64,000 bases of DNA from Alphaproteobacteria bacterium (GTDB lineage Bacteria; Pseudomonadota; Alphaproteobacteria; Sphingomonadales; Kordiimonadaceae). The stretch covers positions 62,001 to 126,000 of the forward strand of contig SBGU01000056.1 in NCBI GenBank assembly GCA_006226495.1, read 5' to 3'. The notes below the pieces were generated by a model. The model had not been told where the DNA came from. It searched no databases and saw nothing but the letters and a program-made list of their open reading frames with translations. Below are positions 3,330 through 23,578 of this stretch, piece by piece. Made by a program: the position numbers and the translations under genes. Each line of letters opens with the position of its first letter. The first letter of the stretch is position 1.

Positions 3330-3378
3330 TTTATGAGAGTCTAGCGGTTTTTCGTGACATTATTGCCCATATATCTAT

Positions 3379-3390
3379 TTTATATATAAA
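3379..3390. promoter_or_regulatory. AT-rich palindrome TTTATATATAAA
   Basis: Perfect 12-bp palindrome 72 bases upstream of the favoured GntR start. It may be a second operator half or part of an AT-rich promoter. It is simple sequence, so chance is a real alternative. Confidence 0.3.
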
Positions 3391-3462
3391 TTCAATTGAG
3401 GCCTTGCAGCCACAGCCATTGCCTGCGACGACGTGTCAGAACAGAAACAAAAGGGGGAAATA

Positions 3463-4191
3463 TTGAACAGTGAAGAAGAAGACACGCTGATCTCGTTCCT
3501 GGCGCGACCAACGGGCCGCGCCGGCGTCGATCGCGCCCTGCGGGAGATCGTGCTTGGTCTCGTGAGTGGCCGCTATCGGCCAGGTGAAAAATTGAATGCC
3601 AACAAGATCGTCAAGGAAATTGGCATCGGGCTCGTGCCGGTGCGCGAGGCATTGCACCTTCTTGCCGGCCAGGGCGTGATCGACCTCCTGCCCCAGAAAG
3701 GTGCGCGGGTCAAAGGGATGTCGCGTGGCGAGACCGAGGAGTGGCACGAGCTATTCCGTGTGCTCACACTGATCGGGATACGCAAGGCCGCACGACTGCT
3801 GCGGGAACAGCCTGAATTGAAAATGCCCCTGGCCCAGGCACGTGCGGCGGTCGAGCGGTTGCCATCGGAGGAATCAAACCCGCGGATCGCGACTGCCATG
3901 CTTGAATTTCATCGCCGTATCAATGCGTTTTGTGGCTCCGAACTGCTGGACGAGGCCTCGCGCCGCTTGCAGGTGGTTCACTGGATCAGCTTTGTCGCCC
4001 AATATGCCTCGCTCGTTCCCCACCGGGTTGCCATCATGGAGAATTATTTTCGCCTGGCCGATGCGCTGGGCCGTGGAGATTCGGATTCCGCAGTGGCCGC
4101 CTACAATTACCAATGCGCCTTCCTCGGGGCCCTGATCCGGGGCGAAAACCCTGACACAGAGACGGCGTGGATACAGAATACACCCTTCTGA
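3463..4191 (+). CDS. GntR family (FadR/FCD-type) transcriptional regulator
   Basis: DNA-binding regulator with an N-terminal winged helix (ALREIVLGLVSGRYRPG, then LVPVREALHLLAGQGVI, the GntR signature) and an all-helical C-terminal ligand domain of the FCD kind. I place the start at TTG 3463 (242 residues) because AAGGGGG precedes it by 5 bases. A GTG at 3433 would add ten residues but lacks a ribosome site. It is divergent from the SnoaL-amidase pair and next to the hydrolase gene. GntR/FCD proteins usually repress adjacent catabolic genes until a pathway acid binds, so it is the best candidate regulator of the cluster. Confidence 0.85.
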   Translation: MNSEEEDTLISFLARPTGRAGVDRALREIVLGLVSGRYRPGEKLNANKIVKEIGIGLVPVREALHLLAGQGVIDLLPQKGARVKGMSRGETEEWHELFRVLTLIGIRKAARLLREQPELKMPLAQARAAVERLPSEESNPRIATAMLEFHRRINAFCGSELLDEASRRLQVVHWISFVAQYASLVPHRVAIMENYFRLADALGRGDSDSAVAAYNYQCAFLGALIRGENPDTETAWIQNTPF

Positions 4192-12409: not shown

Positions 12410-14851
12410 TCAAAACTTGCTGCGTATCTGCAACACGAAGGTACGCGGCTGCAGCGGAACATGGAGATAGCTGGGCGAGCCGAAAACGTTGGCGGCCAGC
12501 GGTGTATTTGAAGCGAAGCCGACAACATAATGGTTCGTCAGGTTGCGAACGCTGAAGCCGACATCCCAGGCGCCTGAACTCGACCCGAAAGCGATGCGTG
12601 CATCGACCAGGGCGAAGCTTGCCTGCCGCTGCAGCGGGTTCAGGTCACCCTGCGTGAAGTAGGCGCCGGAGAATCTGGTGTCGGCACTCAGGGTAAGCAG
12701 GTGCTCGCCGGACACCTCCTGTTCCCAGGTCAATCCGGCATTACCATTCCATTTGGGCACATACTGGTTGCTTTTGCCCGCATAGTTGCAGTGCACACCA
12801 TCGGGTGCATCTGCCGGCTGGCCGACATAACACAGGCCATAGAAGGTCCCGAACTCAAAGTCTGTATAGGCGAAGGCACCATGAGCGGTCAGGTTGGGCG
12901 TGATGCTCCAGCGCGTGTCAAGCTCGAGCCCCTTGACCTTGGCGCTTGCCGCGTTGCCGACATTGTAGCCAAGGCCACCGTCATAGAGACTGATCTGAAG
13001 GCTTTTGAAATCCTGATAATAAGCGGCAAGGTTGATTTCAGCCCGCCGACCGATCGAGATCTTGGTGCCAACCTCGTAGGCGTCGTTCTGTTCATTCTCG
13101 AACTCAAAAGCGCCAATCGCGGTCGCGGGCAATCCGTCTGCCACATAAGGAAGATTGTTCGAGCGGGCATCGAAACCACCCGACTTGGCGCCCCGCTTCC
13201 AGGATGCGTAGGCCATGACACCGGGTGCCGGGTTCCCTTCAAGAGTGATGGAGGGAAGCCACGCCTTGTCGGTCCGCTCGCCGCTGACCGTATGCGCATT
13301 GACATTGAAAATGCCGGAATAGGCGGCAAGCGTGCCCGGGCCGGCAGGCATTCCGTCCTTCGTCATGAATATTTCGCGGCTCGCCTTCTTTTCACCCCAC
13401 GAATAACGCAGTCCGCCGGTCAGACGCAGATTGTCGTTGAAGTGATAGGTAAGCTGGGCGAAGGCGCTCGCTGTATTGCTGGTCTGATGGACATGCCGTG
13501 CCAGGCTGGCGTTGTCGAGCTGGTCGCCAAGGCCGGGAGCGAGACCGTTGAAGATCGGCACAACAATGCTTCCGGCCGGAAATGGCGCGTCCTCATCATA
13601 GGTATATTCATTGGTTTCGAAATAGACGCCGCCCATATAGTCGAGTCTGTCGCCGGTGTTCGATTCCAGGCGGATTTCCTGGCTATACTGGTCATATTTA
13701 TCCTGGCTCTGGACATTGAGAAAGTTCGCTGCCGTGAAGTCGGAATCGAAGAAGTCCTTGTATTTGTAGCCCGAATACCCCGAAGTCGAGGTGAGCGTGA
13801 AAGGATCGAACTCACGCCGGGCGGTCAACACGAATTCCTTGGCCCGGTTAACGGAATAGCCTTCCGTAAAAGAGCCCTGCCAGTTGCTGATATTGTCCAG
13901 CACGCTGGTCGGCTGACCGAAGGCCACCAGGATTTCGGCATAGGTCATGCCCGCGAAAGGTCCGGATGTGGCGGGGGTTTCATCGGCTGTCTCTTCCGGA
14001 AGGCCGCCGCGCTTGTAATAGTCGTATTCGGCCTTGAGGGTGAGCGAGAAATTGTCCGATACATCATAGGCAAGAATGCCCCGGATCTGGCGCTCCCGCA
14101 GCGAGGGAAAGCCCTTTCCGGTCTCGTTGTTGTTCATGTAGCCGTCTGAATCATTGTAGCGCGCAGCGACCCGGAAGCGCATCGTGTCGCTGATAGGACC
14201 CGAAATGGCGCCCTCCGCCGCATAGCCGTTCAGGTCGGTATCATAGTGAACAACCTCGCCGTCGACATAACCTTCGAAGTCGGCAGTCGGTTGCGCGGTT
14301 GTTACGTTCAGGGCGCCAGCAACACTGTTCTTGCCGAACAGGATCGATTGCGGCCCCCTCAGCACCTCGACGCGCTCGACATCCAGAAACGGGATGCGCG
14401 CCTGGAACGGGCGGCCACGCGAAATACCATCGACATACGTGCCAACGGACTGCTCCAGGCCCTGGTTTTCACCACTGAAGATGCCCCGAATGCCGAGGTT
14501 CTGGGAAAAGGCGACTTCCACGAAGGTCAGGCTGGGCGCGAGCTTGGGCAAATCGGCAATCTTGTCGATGCCGGCGGTCTGCATCTTTTCCGGCCCTACA
14601 GCCGTTACGGCAACAGGAACGTCCTGAAGACGCTCGGCACGGCGCTGTGCCGTCACGACGATTTCGTCCAGACCGATACTGTTGGCTGGCTCCTCGGTGT
14701 CCTGCGACGCCTTCTGGCTTGAACCGTCGGCTGTTTGGGCGGCCAAAGGGCCCGTAACGGCAACACCCATCGCCAGCGCCGCGGCGCCGGTGAGAAAGCG
14801 TGTCACGCGCAAACGCGCCGGATGAACTGGAAATTGCATCTCACTGAGCAT
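12410..14851 (-). CDS. TonB-dependent outer-membrane receptor
   Basis: 22-strand beta-barrel receptor of 813 residues with a signal peptide (cleavage probably after GPLAAQ), a linker, a TonB-box-like segment DEIVVTAQRRAERLQDVP typical of sphingomonad-type receptors, a plug domain containing VLRGPQSILFGKNSVAGALN, and the C-terminal barrel ending in an aromatic residue (QIRSKF). The start at 14851 follows AAGGAAG with five bases between; the longer upstream frame lacks a ribosome site. It is the first gene of the catabolic operon, so it probably imports the pathway substrate, not a siderophore. Confidence 0.92.
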   Translation of the reverse strand: MLSEMQFPVHPARLRVTRFLTGAAALAMGVAVTGPLAAQTADGSSQKASQDTEEPANSIGLDEIVVTAQRRAERLQDVPVAVTAVGPEKMQTAGIDKIADLPKLAPSLTFVEVAFSQNLGIRGIFSGENQGLEQSVGTYVDGISRGRPFQARIPFLDVERVEVLRGPQSILFGKNSVAGALNVTTAQPTADFEGYVDGEVVHYDTDLNGYAAEGAISGPISDTMRFRVAARYNDSDGYMNNNETGKGFPSLRERQIRGILAYDVSDNFSLTLKAEYDYYKRGGLPEETADETPATSGPFAGMTYAEILVAFGQPTSVLDNISNWQGSFTEGYSVNRAKEFVLTARREFDPFTLTSTSGYSGYKYKDFFDSDFTAANFLNVQSQDKYDQYSQEIRLESNTGDRLDYMGGVYFETNEYTYDEDAPFPAGSIVVPIFNGLAPGLGDQLDNASLARHVHQTSNTASAFAQLTYHFNDNLRLTGGLRYSWGEKKASREIFMTKDGMPAGPGTLAAYSGIFNVNAHTVSGERTDKAWLPSITLEGNPAPGVMAYASWKRGAKSGGFDARSNNLPYVADGLPATAIGAFEFENEQNDAYEVGTKISIGRRAEINLAAYYQDFKSLQISLYDGGLGYNVGNAASAKVKGLELDTRWSITPNLTAHGAFAYTDFEFGTFYGLCYVGQPADAPDGVHCNYAGKSNQYVPKWNGNAGLTWEQEVSGEHLLTLSADTRFSGAYFTQGDLNPLQRQASFALVDARIAFGSSSGAWDVGFSVRNLTNHYVVGFASNTPLAANVFGSPSYLHVPLQPRTFVLQIRSKF

Positions 14852-15161
14852 GTTACTTCCTTTTAAATTATAAGTTTTATGGCCCGCATAACGAATGCCA
14901 CACCTCATCATTTTGCCTGCCTCCCCCATGTGACGGCCCGGCGAGATTTCAAAATAACGCGTCGGCAAAGCTGAAAATGTAGATTTTGTGACATTTGGTA
15001 GAAATTGTTCGTGCCAGACATGTCCGGCACACAAAAGCCGCTGGCCAGATGCGAAATTTATGGCCCTTGCCATTAATTTATAAATTTATACCACCGTCAA
15101 ACCATGCCGGTGTGATGCCAAGGCCCCTGCGGTGAGCTTGACAAACCATGTGGAGAGAAAG
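14852..15161. other. Divergent promoter region of the receptor operon and FAH gene
   Basis: About 310 bases with AT-rich patches at both ends, in contrast to the GC-rich genes. Near the receptor start is a TTTAAATTATAAGTTTTAT stretch; near the FAH start is the ATTTATAAAT palindrome. No unmistakable sigma-70 hexamer pair was found. Confidence 0.5.
15076..15085. promoter_or_regulatory. Palindrome ATTTATAAAT, second candidate GntR operator
   Basis: Identical to the palindrome at 3320-3329 and again located in a divergent intergenic region, 76 bases upstream of the FAH-family start. Two identical sites at the two divergent promoters of one catabolic cluster is the main evidence for a shared operator. 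Confidence 0.5.
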
Positions 15162-17792: not shown

Positions 17793-18293
17793 CTATTCTG
17801 CCGCTTTCTGGCCGGAGCCTGATACCGCCTCGACCGGCGGTTTGCGGGTCTGCCGGGCATGCTCGCGCGCGGCCAGGCGGCCCCGTATGGCGTGCCAGGT
17901 GAAAAAGCCCGCGCCCACAAGGCCAAGGCCGGTATGCACAAGGCTGGACCACAGGCTCAGGTCCTCGTCGCCCAGATAATAGATACCGATGCCGGTGGCC
18001 GCCATCAAGGCCAGGCTGGTGGCAAGGATAGTGCCCGATGTGCGGTGCCGGCGTTTGCGCCAGCCCGCGCGCATGTGAATGGACCACAGGCTGCCCGCCA
18101 GCATCAGCATGAAAAAGGCCACAAAGGCATGGGCGGCGACCGTGACCAGACGGCCATCCGCATCCAGCCGCCAGGGCACATTCATCTCGAGCCGGAAATC
18201 CAGCATGCTGGGCACGAGCAAAAGGCCGGTGACAAACAGGCCAATCGCAGTCAGCACCACGACGCGGGTGAAATGGCGCGGATAGCCCTTCAT
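17793..18293 (-). CDS. Four-helix membrane protein with two histidine pairs (cytochrome-b-like)
   Basis: 166-residue inner-membrane protein with about four transmembrane helices (roughly 9-30, 50-72, 86-104, 114-135) and a charged cytoplasmic tail. Four histidines lie at helix ends: His55 and His73 on the second helix, His120 and His134 on the fourth. That is the arrangement expected for two bis-His b-type haems, as in DUF4405 and cytochrome-b561-type domains. It is the last gene of an operon with an ApbE, an FMN-binding protein and an outer-membrane protein, overlapping apbE by four bases. Predicted role: passing electrons from the quinone pool to the periplasmic flavoprotein. Family assignment is by pattern only. 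Confidence 0.68.
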   Translation of the reverse strand: MKGYPRHFTRVVVLTAIGLFVTGLLLVPSMLDFRLEMNVPWRLDADGRLVTVAAHAFVAFFMLMLAGSLWSIHMRAGWRKRRHRTSGTILATSLALMAATGIGIYYLGDEDLSLWSSLVHTGLGLVGAGFFTWHAIRGRLAAREHARQTRKPPVEAVSGSGQKAAE

Positions 18294-19114
18294 GCCGCCC
18301 CCGCCACCGCCGGGCCGGCGATCAGGGCGCCATGCAGGCGGTTCAGCAGGGCTGCGCGGTCGGCATCACCCGCCAGTGCCGCCACTTTGGTCAGCGCGTC
18401 GGCCTGCCAGGCATAGCGGGCGCACACGGTCCAGGCGCCGGGGGCCGGTGCGTTGTCGCCGGCCGATACGGTCAGGCCCGGGAAACGTTCATCCACCTGC
18501 GGCGCGACCACGGATGTCGCCACGGCACCACCCGAAAGCTCGCCCAGCCTGGTGATGCTGCCGTTGGTTTCCCGCCGGCGCACCCGCAATTTGCTGTTCC
18601 CGAACGCGCGCATGTCGCCCCCTGCATCAACCCAGCCGGATGTGAAGCCGGCGCGCCGCACTATAGCGACCGCACGGTCGACCGCAAAGCCCTTGGCAAT
18701 GCCATCGAATGTCAGCGCCAGGGGCCGCTTGAGACGGAGGCGGTTGCCGTTCATGTCGAAATCGCCCAACTGGCCGAAAGGTAAGGGCATGGGGCCACCG
18801 GTGGGCGGCAGCGCGCCGCGCGCCACCAATTGCCCGCCCACCGTGGGGTTGAACAGCCCGCCCGAATGCCACATCAGCAGCATGGAAAGCCCCAGCACAC
18901 GCCGGAAGGCCGGTGCGAGGTCGTGCCAGGCCATCGGGTCGCGGTTGAAGGCGCTGAGCGCACTGTCGGGCGACTGGAAGGAAAGAAGGTCGTGGATCGC
19001 GGCAATTTCCGCGAAGGCGGCTGTGACCGCGGCATCGGCGGCGGGGCCCGCCCCATCGACGCCGATTTCAACAAAGGTGCCCAAAAGGGGGCGCTGACGC
19101 ACCGTGTCAGCCAT
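18290..19114 (-). CDS. apbE: FAD:protein FMN transferase (ApbE family)
   Basis: Flavin transferase of 274 residues that attaches FMN through a phosphoester to a Thr/Ser of target proteins, using FAD and Mg2+. Seen are PLLGTFVEI near the N-terminus, LTFDGIAKGFAVDRA (the family's GGIAKGYAVD motif with Asp for the first Gly), VDAGGDMRAFG and the C-terminal metal-site segment QADALTKVAAL. There is no obvious signal peptide or lipobox in this reading, unusual for an enzyme whose target is periplasmic, so the start may lie upstream or export may be atypical. It overlaps the FMN-binding gene by eight bases and the membrane gene by four. Its likely target is the immediate upstream product. Confidence 0.88.
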   Translation of the reverse strand: MADTVRQRPLLGTFVEIGVDGAGPAADAAVTAAFAEIAAIHDLLSFQSPDSALSAFNRDPMAWHDLAPAFRRVLGLSMLLMWHSGGLFNPTVGGQLVARGALPPTGGPMPLPFGQLGDFDMNGNRLRLKRPLALTFDGIAKGFAVDRAVAIVRRAGFTSGWVDAGGDMRAFGNSKLRVRRRETNGSITRLGELSGGAVATSVVAPQVDERFPGLTVSAGDNAPAPGAWTVCARYAWQADALTKVAALAGDADRAALLNRLHGALIAGPAVAGAA

Positions 19115-19658
19115 CCATAAGCACCAGTTGGTGCAGCGCCAGCACGCGCTTCACCCCATCGGTGACATTGCGGCACGACAGGGTGGCACCCGAAATATTG
19201 CTGATGTCTTCATCCAGCTTGAAGGCGCCATCGATGGTCTTGCCCTTGAACTGGTTGCGCCAGTCGGCTTCCATGATCTGGTAGCCATGGGTTTCCCGGT
19301 AGCTGAGGATTTCAACCCCGATCACACGCCCGTCCGGCGTGATGCCGACGGCATAGGTGATAAATTCATGTTTGCCGACCACTTCGTCGACAACCAGCCA
19401 GCCCAGGAACCTGCCGTCCGCTTCGGCGCGCCACACCAGTTGGTCGTCCCAGCGCTGGCGCACGCCGGACAGGTCCTTGATGGCCTTTTTCTGGTCCTTG
19501 GTGATGGTGAGTTTATGGTCGAGGAAGGTTTGCGCCGCCGGGAACAGGATTTTCCGGGCGTCGGCGACGGACAGATAGTCCTTCGCATACACGGACTGGC
19601 TGATCGCAAGCGTTGGCAGTGCGGCCAGAAAGACAAAATTCCGGTTGAATTGGTTCAT
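19107..19658 (-). CDS. Periplasmic FMN-binding domain protein (covalent flavoprotein)
   Basis: 183-residue exported protein with a signal peptide of about 25 residues (cleavage after SVYA) and an FMN-bind domain of the NqrC/RnfG/NosR type. The flavinylation motif is SGATLS, placing covalent FMN on Thr159. The preceding DGAFKLDEDISNI segment also matches the family. It is encoded 24 bases after the outer-membrane protein gene and overlaps apbE. It is predicted to carry one electron at a time between the cytochrome-b-like membrane protein and an unidentified periplasmic or outer-membrane acceptor. Confidence 0.88.
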   Translation of the reverse strand: MNQFNRNFVFLAALPTLAISQSVYAKDYLSVADARKILFPAAQTFLDHKLTITKDQKKAIKDLSGVRQRWDDQLVWRAEADGRFLGWLVVDEVVGKHEFITYAVGITPDGRVIGVEILSYRETHGYQIMEADWRNQFKGKTIDGAFKLDEDISNISGATLSCRNVTDGVKRVLALHQLVLMDG

Positions 19659-19682
19659 GGCAAACCTCCCTCGAACAGGTTT

Positions 19683-20573
19683 TTAGAAGTTCAGGCCCAC
19701 TTTCAGGATGAACTCGTTCTTGGTCTTTTCAATCAGGTGCAGGCCGTCGGGCTGGCCGTCATAGGTTTCGCCACCGCCCGAAAGCTGGGGCAGCCAGGTT
19801 GCGGTTGCCCACCATTTGGCACCGCCATAATGGATGGACGGGCCGCCAAACACCGACCAGCGTTCCTGGCCGACCTCGGTTTCAAACTCGGTCTGGTATT
19901 CGATTTCGGCACCCAGGTACCAGTTGGGCGCAAAGCGGTACGACAGGCCGGTGCCCAAGGTTACCTCAAGCTCCATTTCGGGGTCGGTGGGCCAATCGAA
20001 ATCGTCGGGCAGGTTGTCGATCGGCGCCCGGTCGGCATAGGTGCCTTCGACGCTGATGTTGCCCATCCAGATCATCTGGCCTTCAAGGAAATATTTCTGG
20101 CCGATCAGTTCAAACTCCAGCGACAGGGTATCCTTGTCCTGGCCCGAATGCGCATCCATCCAGTCATAATTCAGCGAGCTATACATCGACAGGCCGAAGT
20201 CGTCCTTCGCGGGCGACAGGAAATTATACTTTCCGGTCAGTTCGATGGCAGCCAGTTTGGGGCCGAAATTGCCTTCAAGCGGCAGGTAGCCATCCACGAT
20301 CAGGCCTTCGTTCGATACGCTGCGGCCAAAAAGTGCGACACCACCCTGGAAACGGTCGCTGAAACCATATTCCAGCTCAGTCTTGATATCGATGGCGTCA
20401 TAATCACCCGTGCCCTTGCCCGCGCGCCACTTGATGGCGGTATAGAGGTCGTAGGCGCCCTTTGGCAGGACTTCAGCCCCCTTTACGGAGCCAAGCAGGT
20501 TTTCGTCGGCCTGCACGCCGGCAGTCAGCGCCGTGCCGGCAAGGGCCGCGGCGAAGAAGCGAGTCAGATTCAT
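19683..20573 (-). CDS. Outer-membrane beta-barrel-type protein (DUF6662-like)
   Basis: 296-residue exported protein with a signal peptide ending near GVQADE. The rest is almost entirely alternating amphipathic strands, ending in the aromatic residue Phe (KVGLNF), as expected for an outer-membrane barrel. The N-terminal ENLLGSVKGAEVLPKGAYDLYTAI pattern resembles proteins I recall as DUF6662; this is from memory. The start ATG 20573 follows GGGAGAT. It is the first gene of the flavinylation operon, so it may be the outer-membrane element of the module or a coincidental co-transcribed porin. Confidence 0.72.
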   Translation of the reverse strand: MNLTRFFAAALAGTALTAGVQADENLLGSVKGAEVLPKGAYDLYTAIKWRAGKGTGDYDAIDIKTELEYGFSDRFQGGVALFGRSVSNEGLIVDGYLPLEGNFGPKLAAIELTGKYNFLSPAKDDFGLSMYSSLNYDWMDAHSGQDKDTLSLEFELIGQKYFLEGQMIWMGNISVEGTYADRAPIDNLPDDFDWPTDPEMELEVTLGTGLSYRFAPNWYLGAEIEYQTEFETEVGQERWSVFGGPSIHYGGAKWWATATWLPQLSGGGETYDGQPDGLHLIEKTKNEFILKVGLNF

Positions 20574-20644: not shown

Positions 20645-20808
20645 TTCGCAATCGCGGGCGCACGATAACAAGCAAACAAACACTTGCAAGTCATACTGAG
20701 AATTAATCTTAAGGTGCGACTTTTTATACACACCCGTCCCCCGACCTGCGCTATGCTGGCAGGCCTGTTCGGTGTTCCCCTGCGGCGCTATGCAGTCAGA
20801 GGCCTTCG

Positions 20809-21654
20809 ATGCCTGTTGAACGGTCGGGATATTCGCACTTTGTCGGGCTTTTGCTCGTGTGCCTGCTTGTGGTGCTGGCGCTTGCGGAAACCGTGGGCGG
20901 GGCTGCGCAGGCGGCGGACAAGGCCAACACACCTGTGCCGGAGGCCGGGCCGCCCACCCATATCTATGCCACCGACTGGGGCCTGACCCTGAGCGCGGAC
21001 GGTTCCGGTTTTTATAACGACCTCGCCCGTTTCCTGTTCCTGGCGCCCGAGGTGGGCCCTGTGGATTACGAGATCCTGCCCTACAGGCGCGCGAACCGCA
21101 GTTTCCTGGACGATGCAGCCAGTTGCAAATACCCGTCCAGCATTGCCTATAACCTGCGTGGCGGCCTGATCCCGTCGGCGGAGGGATACCTGAACAGCCT
21201 GCCTGTGGTGCTGACGCGGGTACACCTGTTTTCCCGCCCCGGGCGCGAACCGGCCCACCGCGCGGAAGATGTGGACGGCAAGACCATTGCCTATGCCATG
21301 GGCGCGCGCACGCCGGCCTTGCTCGCGGGCCACAGTGCGCTGTTCATTGCGGTCGCGGACGAGGTGGACAAGGCACGCATGCTGCTTTCGGGCCGGGTGG
21401 ACATGATCACCGCCGCGGTGCCGGACGTGGAATTTGTGTTTCGGGAACTGAAGGTGGATATGGCGCCCTTCGCGCCTGAACTGACCCTCGATGTTTCGCC
21501 CATGGGGGTGGACTGCCACGCCGGCACCGCCAATGCCGCCTTTCTGGCCCGGCTGGATGCCCGCATCCGGAAACTGCACGCAAGCGGTGAACTGATTGCC
21601 TTCTACCGCAGCCAAGGGCTGGACCCCGCCAGCTATGTGCCGCCGGCGCCCTGA
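20809..21654 (+). CDS. Periplasmic-binding-protein-like protein, paralogue 1
   Basis: 281-residue exported protein with a signal anchor/peptide (residues about 12-36) and a type 2 periplasmic-binding fold resembling SBP_bac_3. It belongs to a four-member local family that shares ATDWGLTL..DG.GFYNDLAR, an LPYRRA motif, two conserved cysteines (here in ASCKYP and VDCHAG, probably a disulphide), VADEVDKA and a C-terminal GLD..SYVP. No ABC permease or ATPase lies nearby, so it is an orphan binding protein. The ligand and the partner are unknown. Confidence 0.75.
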   Translation: MPVERSGYSHFVGLLLVCLLVVLALAETVGGAAQAADKANTPVPEAGPPTHIYATDWGLTLSADGSGFYNDLARFLFLAPEVGPVDYEILPYRRANRSFLDDAASCKYPSSIAYNLRGGLIPSAEGYLNSLPVVLTRVHLFSRPGREPAHRAEDVDGKTIAYAMGARTPALLAGHSALFIAVADEVDKARMLLSGRVDMITAAVPDVEFVFRELKVDMAPFAPELTLDVSPMGVDCHAGTANAAFLARLDARIRKLHASGELIAFYRSQGLDPASYVPPAP

Positions 21655-21674
21655 AACGGGGCGGATATCGCCAT

Positions 21675-21707
21675 GGTTAACGGCAGCAACGGTACCTTGC
21701 GTTAACC
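21675..21707. repeat. Inverted repeat GGTTAACG / CGTTAACC
   Basis: GGTTAACG at 21675-21682 and CGTTAACC at 21700-21707 form a perfect 8-bp inverted repeat with a 17-base spacer, between paralogues 1 and 2. It could be a weak terminator followed by TTTG or an operator with two GTTAAC half-sites. Confidence 0.4.
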
Positions 21708-21761
21708 TTTGATCGATATATTTCAGCTTATGACCATGATTACCGCAACCGGGGACCCAAA

Positions 21762-22631
21762 ATGCCACGCCGCGCCCGGAACACCATAGGCCGCCATCTG
21801 GCCCTGGCGCTTGCCGGTGCCGGCCTGTTTTTGCATGGTCCGCACGTGGGCGCGAACGACGCCGGCAGTATCAATATCCTGGCCACCGACTGGGGCCTGA
21901 CCCTGAAGGCAGACGGCAGCGGTTTCTATAACGAGCTGGCGCGCCTGTTGCTGGAAGGCGAAGAAGCTGGCATCCGGTATGAAATCCAGCCCTATCGCAA
22001 GGCTGTGCGCCAGTTTGTCGACACGGAAGGCACATGTCTGTTTCCCACCAACCTGTCGTTCCTGGCCCGCAGCGGCCTGATCGACGGCGACGAAAACAAT
22101 GCGGTCCATCATCATTATGTGCAGAGCCGGCCATTCATCCGGGCGCGCATCCACCTGTTTTCGCAGCCGGGCACACCGCCGGTGCATAATCTGGAAACCA
22201 TCCGCGGCCAAACCGTGGCCTATGCGCTGGGTGCCAGCACGCCCTATCTGCTCAGGCAATATGGCGCCTTTTTCATTGCCGTGGCCGATGAAACCGACAA
22301 GGCGCAGCTTCTGTTGTCCCGCAAGGTGGATATGATGACCGCCGCCCTGCCGGACGCGCTGTTTGTCTTCCGCAGCCTTGGTGTGCCGCCCGCGCCCTAT
22401 GCTGCGGATGCGCCTGTGGATGTGTCCCTGTTGCATGTGGCCTGCCATGGCAGCGATACGACCCGCGCTTTCCTCGCCCGGCTGGACCAGCGTATTGCCA
22501 CCCTGATCGCCAGTGGTCGTCTTGCCGCCTTTTTTGAGGGCCACAGCATTGACCCCAATGCCTATATTCCGGCGGGCGCAACAGATGGCGGCCCCAAAAC
22601 CCCAGGAAGACGCGGCCCAAACCTTGACTAA
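21762..22631 (+). CDS. Periplasmic-binding-protein-like protein, paralogue 2
   Basis: 289-residue homologue of paralogue 1 with a signal peptide ending near GANDAG. It has the family signature ATDWGLTLKADGSGFYNELAR, IQPYRKA, cysteines in GTCLFP and VACHGS, and VADETDKA. A short basic Pro/Gly-rich C-terminal tail after AYIPAG is unique to this copy. It lies 107 bases downstream of copy 1, with an inverted repeat in the gap, so the genes may be separately controlled. Confidence 0.75.
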   Translation: MPRRARNTIGRHLALALAGAGLFLHGPHVGANDAGSINILATDWGLTLKADGSGFYNELARLLLEGEEAGIRYEIQPYRKAVRQFVDTEGTCLFPTNLSFLARSGLIDGDENNAVHHHYVQSRPFIRARIHLFSQPGTPPVHNLETIRGQTVAYALGASTPYLLRQYGAFFIAVADETDKAQLLLSRKVDMMTAALPDALFVFRSLGVPPAPYAADAPVDVSLLHVACHGSDTTRAFLARLDQRIATLIASGRLAAFFEGHSIDPNAYIPAGATDGGPKTPGRRGPNLD

Positions 22632-22705
22632 ATTTGTAAATATAACTGTAACTGAACCGCCACCTGTGCTAACGCCCGGCCAGTGGGGGCTGGGCAGCAG
22701 GATTG

Positions 22706-23578
22706 ATGCCGTCGATGACAGCCAGTAACGAGTGCATTGTTGGAACCCGGCGCTGCCACCGCCTGAAGGCGCTTCTGGCGGCGGGTGCAGCCTTGTGGGG
22801 CGCGCAGGCCGCCACGGCCCAGGACAGCGCGGCGGGGGATGCCGCCGATACGCCGGTCGGCCAGCGTGCTGTGCATGTGCTGGCCACCGACTGGGGCATG
22901 ACCCTGAAATCCGATGGTACCGGTTTCTATAACGACCTAGCGCGTTTCGTGATCCAGAAGGCCGACATGGGCGCCAATTATGAAGTGCAGCCCTATCGCC
23001 GTGCCAAGGCCCGGTTTTTCCGCGAACCGGCAAGCTGCCTTTACCCCAGCAACCTGAATGTGCTGTCCGACGGGCAGGAGATCGAAACCCGCGAAGGCCT
23101 GATCGAAAGTGATGCCATCATCCGGGTGCGGGTGTTCATGTTTTCGCCGCCCGGCACCACGCCGCCCGCAAAAATGGAAGATATCAACGACCGCATCGTC
23201 GCCTATGCGCTGGGCTCCAGCCTGCCGCAGTTCCTGAAGGGCACCCATGCCGATTTCATCGCTGTCACCGACGAGGTGGCCAAGGCGCAGATGCTGCTGT
23301 CCGGCCGGGTCGACCTGATGAGCGCGGCCATGCCGGACCTGAAGTTCGTGATGGACAAGCTGGGCACCCATGTGCCGCCCTTCAACCCGGACTTCCCGCT
23401 GAATGATACCTACATCGGGGTGGTGTGCCACGACACGCCGGCCAACCGGGCCTTCATCGGCCGCCTGAACGATGTGATCGGCGCCACCAGCCAGGACGGC
23501 AGCCTTGCCGCCTTCCTGACCGGGCAGGACCTGGATGCGTCGGTCTATCTGCCCCGGGCAATTTCCGCCAGGAACTAA
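22706..23578 (+). CDS. Periplasmic-binding-protein-like protein, paralogue 3
   Basis: 290-residue third tandem copy, exported (signal peptide to about ATAQ). Signature ATDWGMTLKSDGTGFYNDLAR, VQPYRRA, cysteines in ASCLYP and VVCHDT, and VTDEVAKA. The ATG at 22706 has AGCAGGA just upstream, but an ATG at 22715 is an alternative. The gene ends inside the stop region of the convergent M16 protease (3' ends overlap by four bases). Compared with copy 1, the signature region and cysteines are unchanged while surface loops differ, as expected for ligand divergence. Confidence 0.75.
   Translation: MPSMTASNECIVGTRRCHRLKALLAAGAALWGAQAATAQDSAAGDAADTPVGQRAVHVLATDWGMTLKSDGTGFYNDLARFVIQKADMGANYEVQPYRRAKARFFREPASCLYPSNLNVLSDGQEIETREGLIESDAIIRVRVFMFSPPGTTPPAKMEDINDRIVAYALGSSLPQFLKGTHADFIAVTDEVAKAQMLLSGRVDLMSAAMPDLKFVMDKLGTHVPPFNPDFPLNDTYIGVVCHDTPANRAFIGRLNDVIGATSQDGSLAAFLTGQDLDASVYLPRAISARN

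Follow-up and report, generated by a model that had tools for sequence, protein, structure and literature searches.

A conserved proteobacterial gene cluster with candidate Fur boxes, putatively for flavin-dependent electron transfer in the cell envelope

Flavinylated PepSY clusters with Fur control and links to iron are known, as described in the main text of a flavinylation survey (Meheust et al. 2021, PMC8238504). The main text of a second survey reports a DUF4405 protein shown to bind haem b (mSystems 2024, PMC11334425), and FoxB and FrcB are examples of four-helix di-haem ferric reductases (PMC8891985). The reductase for inorganic iron in Bradyrhizobium has been described as unknown (PMC10760861), and reduction of iron in the periplasm ahead of ferrous uptake is a recognised gap.

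Here we consider a run of four genes on the minus strand at positions 17793-20573 of a Kordiimonas window, that is, the whole stretch of 64,000 nucleotides that was analysed (Table 1). It resembles the PepSY/DUF2271/ApbE iron clusters in the main text of the 2021 survey (PMC8238504) in that a membrane electron carrier, an exported flavin carrier and ApbE are encoded together, with candidate Fur control here and with Fur control and TonB or iron links reported there. It differs from these clusters in that a four-helix protein, TM4, stands in place of PepSY and an FMN_bind protein in place of DUF2271, that a predicted outer-membrane barrel is added, and that ApbE has no signal peptide.

Table 1. 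Features of the four-gene run and its upstream region, with positions in the window
Feature	Coordinates	Strand	Remarks
DUF6662 protein	19683..20573	-	296 aa; PF20367, E 1.7e-91
Exported FMN_bind protein	19107..19658	-	183 aa; PF04205, E 6.7e-14
SGATLS flavinylation motif	19176..19193	-	residues 156-161; target Thr159, codon 19184-19182
ApbE-family flavin transferase	18290..19114	-	274 aa; PF02424, E 1.5e-27
DALTK motif in ApbE	18386..18400	-	Lys243 replaces metal-ligand Thr (D+4)
TM4, four-helix membrane protein, putative two-haem cytochrome b	17793..18293	-	166 aa
Fur-like operator TAAGATTAATTCTCA	20697..20711	-	12/14 matches; ~124 bp upstream of DUF6662 ATG

All four open reading frames were confirmed. 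The preliminary description had pointed to a minus-strand run with a flavinylation motif SGATLS (Thr159), two histidine pairs in the membrane protein and overlaps between the last three genes, and all of these are present. The DUF6662 and FMN_bind genes are separated by a gap of 24 bp; FMN_bind overlaps ApbE by 8 bp and ApbE overlaps TM4 by 4 bp.

Divergently from the operon, on the plus strand at 20809-23578, three paralogous genes in tandem encode exported proteins of 281, 289 and 291 aa. These proteins resemble solute-binding proteins and have no significant Pfam match; relatives likewise adjoin the module in K. marina. On the other side, about 2.7 kb past the operon and with opposite-strand genes between, the minus strand encodes an 887-aa protein that is TonB-dependent receptor-like by sequence (12410-15073).

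The four genes are clustered in 33 loci from several proteobacterial families, a total that combines genome samples of the order and the phylum, a TM4 profile search, further sampling and plasmid records. In 32 of them the genes are consecutive and on one strand, and in the remaining one, L117, TM4 is matched on the other strand. On a plasmid of Sphingomonas parapaucimobilis the annotated order is DUF6662, FMN-binding protein, FMN transferase, hypothetical protein. DUF6662 has a patchy distribution: it is present in 6 of 147 genomes of the order and 11 of 398 of the phylum, and a single-sequence DUF6662 search of genome contigs gave a match in Kordiimonas marina only. FMN_bind, ApbE and TM4 come after 16 of the 17 sampled DUF6662 genes; the remaining one is an additional copy, and its genome encodes the complete module at another site. 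The TM4 profile search, which is less biased towards DUF6662, yielded 15 matching places, spread over 14 of 396 genomes, 11 with DUF6662 and 4 with a different barrel-like gene adjoining FMN_bind. Protein distance matrices of the module genes correlate at 0.81-0.90, to which shared organism phylogeny contributes. Since the same four genes recur in 33 loci and the four TM4 histidines are invariant (see below), the arrangement is not due to chance, and the conservation of the cluster rules out a chance neighbourhood or spurious ORFs. The preliminary description had proposed a search for this gene order in other genomes, with loss of the barrel and membrane genes from most relatives counting against a module; the opposite was observed among the cluster-bearing genomes.

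The DUF6662 protein has a signal peptide and a C-terminal ...GLNF, the Phe end being typical of barrels. There is a weak OMP_b-brl match (8e-4, under the cut-off of that family) and a modest strand alternation (9 windows versus 5.8 +/- 1.9 in shuffles). Together these features suggest a protein of the outer-membrane barrel type. PDB profile searches with DUF6662 gave no solid relative, and an AF2 model built from two sequences (pLDDT 29) was discarded. A second class of modules begins with a gene for a porin-like protein in place of DUF6662. By BLAST, eight of these proteins group together, of which two match Porin_O_P; a ninth, from Ideonella, has a weak BBP2 match. No barrel gene is adjacent in L101, L102 and L103. 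Given that the first gene is for DUF6662 or a porin-like protein, with few loci lacking a barrel, the outer-membrane partner is usual and its family changeable. The suggestion that it accepts electrons found no support; an entry route or a docking partner is equally possible. A solitary DUF6662 paralogue, apart from the other three genes, occurs in L034 (5895-6809) and has a near-perfect Fur box, TGAGAATCATTCTTA.

The TM4 proteins are 141-190 aa long. The histidine pairs H55/H73 and H120/H134 are invariant in all 45 homologues, as are Gly23, Gly67 and Tyr106. Both ends of the chain and residues 74-84 are positively charged, and residues 108-111 are acidic, which suggests four helices with both termini inside. 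The histidines are located in predicted helices 2 and 4. This topology would place H55 and H120 towards the periplasm, and H73 and H134 towards the cytosol, giving one candidate bis-His site per face. Thus the invariant histidines match what would be a two-haem b-type wire.

The window TM4 does not reach the cut-off of any Pfam family. Eight of 16 homologues match cytochrome b561 (PF01292, best 8.1e-6), which the window protein itself does not, and 4 of 16 match DUF4405 weakly (best 6.6e-4). Membership of the window protein in DUF4405 (PF14358) was rejected on score, 12.3 bits versus the gathering cut-off of 26.7. The flavinylation-associated DUF4405 cytochromes, as the main text of PMC11334425 presents them, are alike in being small membrane proteins with four conserved histidines encoded with apbE, whereas the window TM4 falls below the PF14358 cut-off and its homologues are closer to cytochrome b561. 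Formate dehydrogenase cytochrome b556 is a weak profile match (E 0.22), in which H120 and H134 align with two of its histidines at equal spacing. No Pfam match to the published transmembrane classes NapH, MsrQ, PepSY, DsbD and NQR/RNF-like was seen in TM4 or among the homologue families listed, and PDB profile searches gave no solid relative. An AF2 model of low confidence (pLDDT 61) was not used; its listed structural matches were helical bundles of a generic kind and included no cytochrome. In L103 a TM4 relative outside the module adjoins a DUF1924 gene, FMN_bind and ApbE being absent. In L033 a fifth gene (3341-3733), overlapping TM4 by 4 bp, encodes a small Rieske protein that begins with a twin-arginine-like sequence.

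The FMN_bind gene of the window is the only FMN_bind match in its genome. The protein combines an AxA-type signal peptide, ending near residue 25, with an ApbE target motif of the form [S/T]GA[S/T], as expected of an exported flavinylation substrate. Positions Gly157, Ala158, Thr159, Leu160 and Ser161 are invariant in the first 16 aligned homologues, and the pattern [SGA]GAT[LM] is matched in 42 of 44; the GKHE motif is also conserved in the DUF6662 class. The usual target motif is D-x-x-[S/T]-G-A-[S/T] (PMC12052999). Its Asp is not kept in the module proteins, including that of the window, and the consensus is N-I-[SGA]-G-A-T-L-S. In nearly all homologues the N-terminal signal looks cleavable and ends in an AxA-type sequence. 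A twin-arginine motif is present in five of them (L026, L027, L033, L114, L117) and absent from the others, the window protein included.

Upstream regions were scored against the 7-1-7 Fur consensus (14 scored positions). Boxes with at least 12/14 matches precede 18 of the 33 module heads, compared with 3 of 165 controls taken upstream of other genes in the same loci (Fisher p 7e-14); the window box prompted this test, and the count without the window is 17/32. Eight module heads have perfect 14/14 boxes, e.g. TGAGAATCATTCTCA and TGATAATCATTATCA. Strict matches span seven families, about a third of the tested loci belonging to one genus. They are weak or absent in L023, L025, L029, L060, L064, L105 and L115. 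The window box scores 12/14, and the strict score in the nearest relative, K. marina, is 10. An operator search of the window's own genome returned five sites. Because the pattern had been modelled on the window site, the zero-mismatch match at that position is circular; the informative result is that a different one of the five lies ahead of a second apbE. The candidate promoter boxes would place the module in the Fur regulon.

Some of the neighbouring genes also have iron links. A sister module in L058 adjoins FTR1, cupredoxin and ferritin; ferritin-like genes are near the modules of L063 and L110; a TonB receptor gene directly follows TM4 in L027. The neighbours in L028 are imelysin-DHOR-imelysin-DUF1513, DHOR being a di-haem oxidoreductase, and PepSY_TM is upstream of the module in L114. 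No iron transporter, FTR1 and P19 included, adjoins the window module, and most loci have no iron-gene neighbours. FeoB_N was rejected as evidence of iron uptake: it matches in 24/24 genomes but also in 14/14 controls, and other GTPases match as well.

We consider it rather probable that the module is a Fur-regulated envelope electron-transfer operon serving iron acquisition, that is, a split periplasmic ferric reductase. From the gene set and its order and conservation, the invariant histidines and threonine, the missing ApbE signal and the Fur boxes, all seen in the sequence, we infer haem, FMN, quinol, the direction of flow and the chemistry, as follows. TM4 would be an inner-membrane protein that holds two bis-His b-haems, one close to either face. 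Electrons would enter it, most likely from quinol, and pass to the periplasmic protein with covalent FMN on Thr159, which would reduce ferric iron or a ferric chelate. The resulting Fe(II) could then enter via a ferrous transporter. The outer-membrane barrel would import or dock the iron complex, and the atypical signal-less ApbE would attach the flavin, probably in the cytosol and ahead of export of the flavoprotein. The preliminary description holds in part: the sequence supports one module that combines a two-haem-type membrane protein with an exported flavoprotein as ApbE target, and an outer-membrane partner gene is hardly ever missing. What it overlooked is the link to iron, from the Fur boxes and the iron-gene neighbours; moreover, with its signal peptide absent, Thr replaced by Lys and the His base lost, ApbE is not of the usual periplasmic type.

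The same chain could feed a periplasmic di-haem peroxidase or a similar oxidoreductase, respiratory or detoxifying, Fur control then reflecting peroxide and iron stress. Indeed, genes of the di-haem peroxidase family CCP_MauG, possible electron partners, are found upstream of porin-FMN_bind-ApbE-TM4 in L062, L104 and L106, and the DHOR of L028 and the Rieske protein overlapping TM4 in L033 could play a similar role. However, such partners occur in few loci, among the DUF6662 loci only in these last two, and the Fur boxes and ferritin or FTR1 neighbours indicate iron itself. We regard a peroxidase or oxidoreductase as an unlikely destination of the electrons.

In the module, apbE lies in the same cluster as the flavin carrier, as is characteristic of extracytosolic flavinylated systems. 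The enzyme is unusual. None of 42 module ApbEs has a hydrophobic signal-like N-terminus, even when frames are extended to the previous stop; for the L120 protein, where the automatic cut failed, the residues preceding the LLGT motif are LGFKEYLMVKRCQA. Signal peptides are present in six other ApbEs from these genomes, and several of them end in a lipobox-like sequence. All 42 module enzymes contain D-x-x-T-K, versus D-x-x-x-T in known enzymes; in E. coli ApbE the metal ligands are D280 and T284 (PMC4767422). The window ApbE has Leu at the position of the general-base histidine (V. cholerae His257), whose equivalent is kept in about 9 of 42 proteins and missing in about 33. The catalytic Ser and Asp and the FAD-pocket motifs GIAKG and AGGD are retained. 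Thus the marks of canonical periplasmic ApbE/Ftp, an export signal, the catalytic His and the metal Thr at D+4, are all lacking.

The combination of a signal-less ApbE with an exported substrate suggests that flavinylation precedes export of the flavoprotein and probably takes place in the cytosol. Described examples of cytosolic ApbEs act on cytosolic or intracellular substrates (PMC12052999). The Tat signals of five FMN_bind relatives fit flavinylation before export, which leaves the Sec-like signals of most others unexplained. The second ApbE of the genome (contig C52; L121 7029-7835, L156) is of the same signal-less DALTK type; its gene is solitary and preceded, at a distance of about 170 bp, by the palindromic Fur-like site TAAGAATTATTCTTA. 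A more specific proposal is tentative: these enzymes may be a separate cytosolic Lys-for-Thr branch of ApbE that loads FMN before export, via Tat in some lineages, for a split ferric reductase under Fur control, in which a minimal two-haem wire works with a covalent flavoprotein and a dedicated outer-membrane partner.

That the module ApbE lacks residues thought important for catalysis counts against the iron reading. The homologue could be dead or have another function, FMN_bind then being without covalent flavin or flavinylated by another enzyme; the replaced metal Thr, the frequent loss of the His257 equivalent and the absence from the window FMN_bind of the Asp of D-x-x-SGAT (motif: PMC12052999) would fit. 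On the other hand, Thr159 and GAT are conserved in FMN_bind, the FAD pocket and catalytic Ser and Asp are retained, the H257G substitution in Vibrio lowered activity and did not abolish it (PMC12052999), and the only other ApbE of the genome is equally atypical. An inactive or diverted ApbE is in our view quite improbable.

Reduction or handling of copper or another metal in the envelope, within metal resistance, is very doubtful: same-strand genes for Cus-type CusB/CusF and AcrB-type efflux lie downstream in L105, with related genes in L028, and a multicopper oxidase gene follows the module in Methylocystis (L063), but such neighbours occur in two or three of about 45 loci only, and the perfect Fur boxes, found in more than one family, speak for iron. 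The alternatives to ferric reduction keep some probability because of these minority-locus neighbours and the lost catalytic residues.

As a split ferric reductase the module would be a conserved, candidate iron-controlled system of simple two-haem and flavin design across Proteobacteria, and one that is testable. DUF6662, a family of unknown function, gains a likely setting. The rule that exported proteins are flavinylated outside the cytosol would come into question.

FoxB, FrcB and HiuB have a four-helix di-haem core and a proposed role in periplasmic ferric-siderophore reduction, to which the four predicted helices and four invariant histidines of TM4 may correspond. HiuABC is under Fur control (PMC13001220), as proposed for the window module. 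In contrast to TM4, with its 166 aa and short loops, proteins of the FoxB/FrcB/HiuB type, as compared in PMC13038864, carry a large periplasmic domain in the same chain; by analogy, the separate flavoprotein would replace this domain. The P19/FTR1 clusters in the main text of PMC8238504 have FMN_bind beside FTR1 and cupredoxin, as in L058, whereas the window module has no adjacent FTR1 or P19. No description of the four-gene set was found in the main texts of the two flavinylation surveys (PMC8238504, PMC11334425). No mention of DUF6662 was found in the flavinylation literature, taken up to the main text of the 2021 survey, whose supplementary tables may list the cluster unnamed. Flavinylated clusters, some of them Fur-controlled, are known; the four-gene set appears to be a new variety among them, and its most surprising part is the unusual ApbE.
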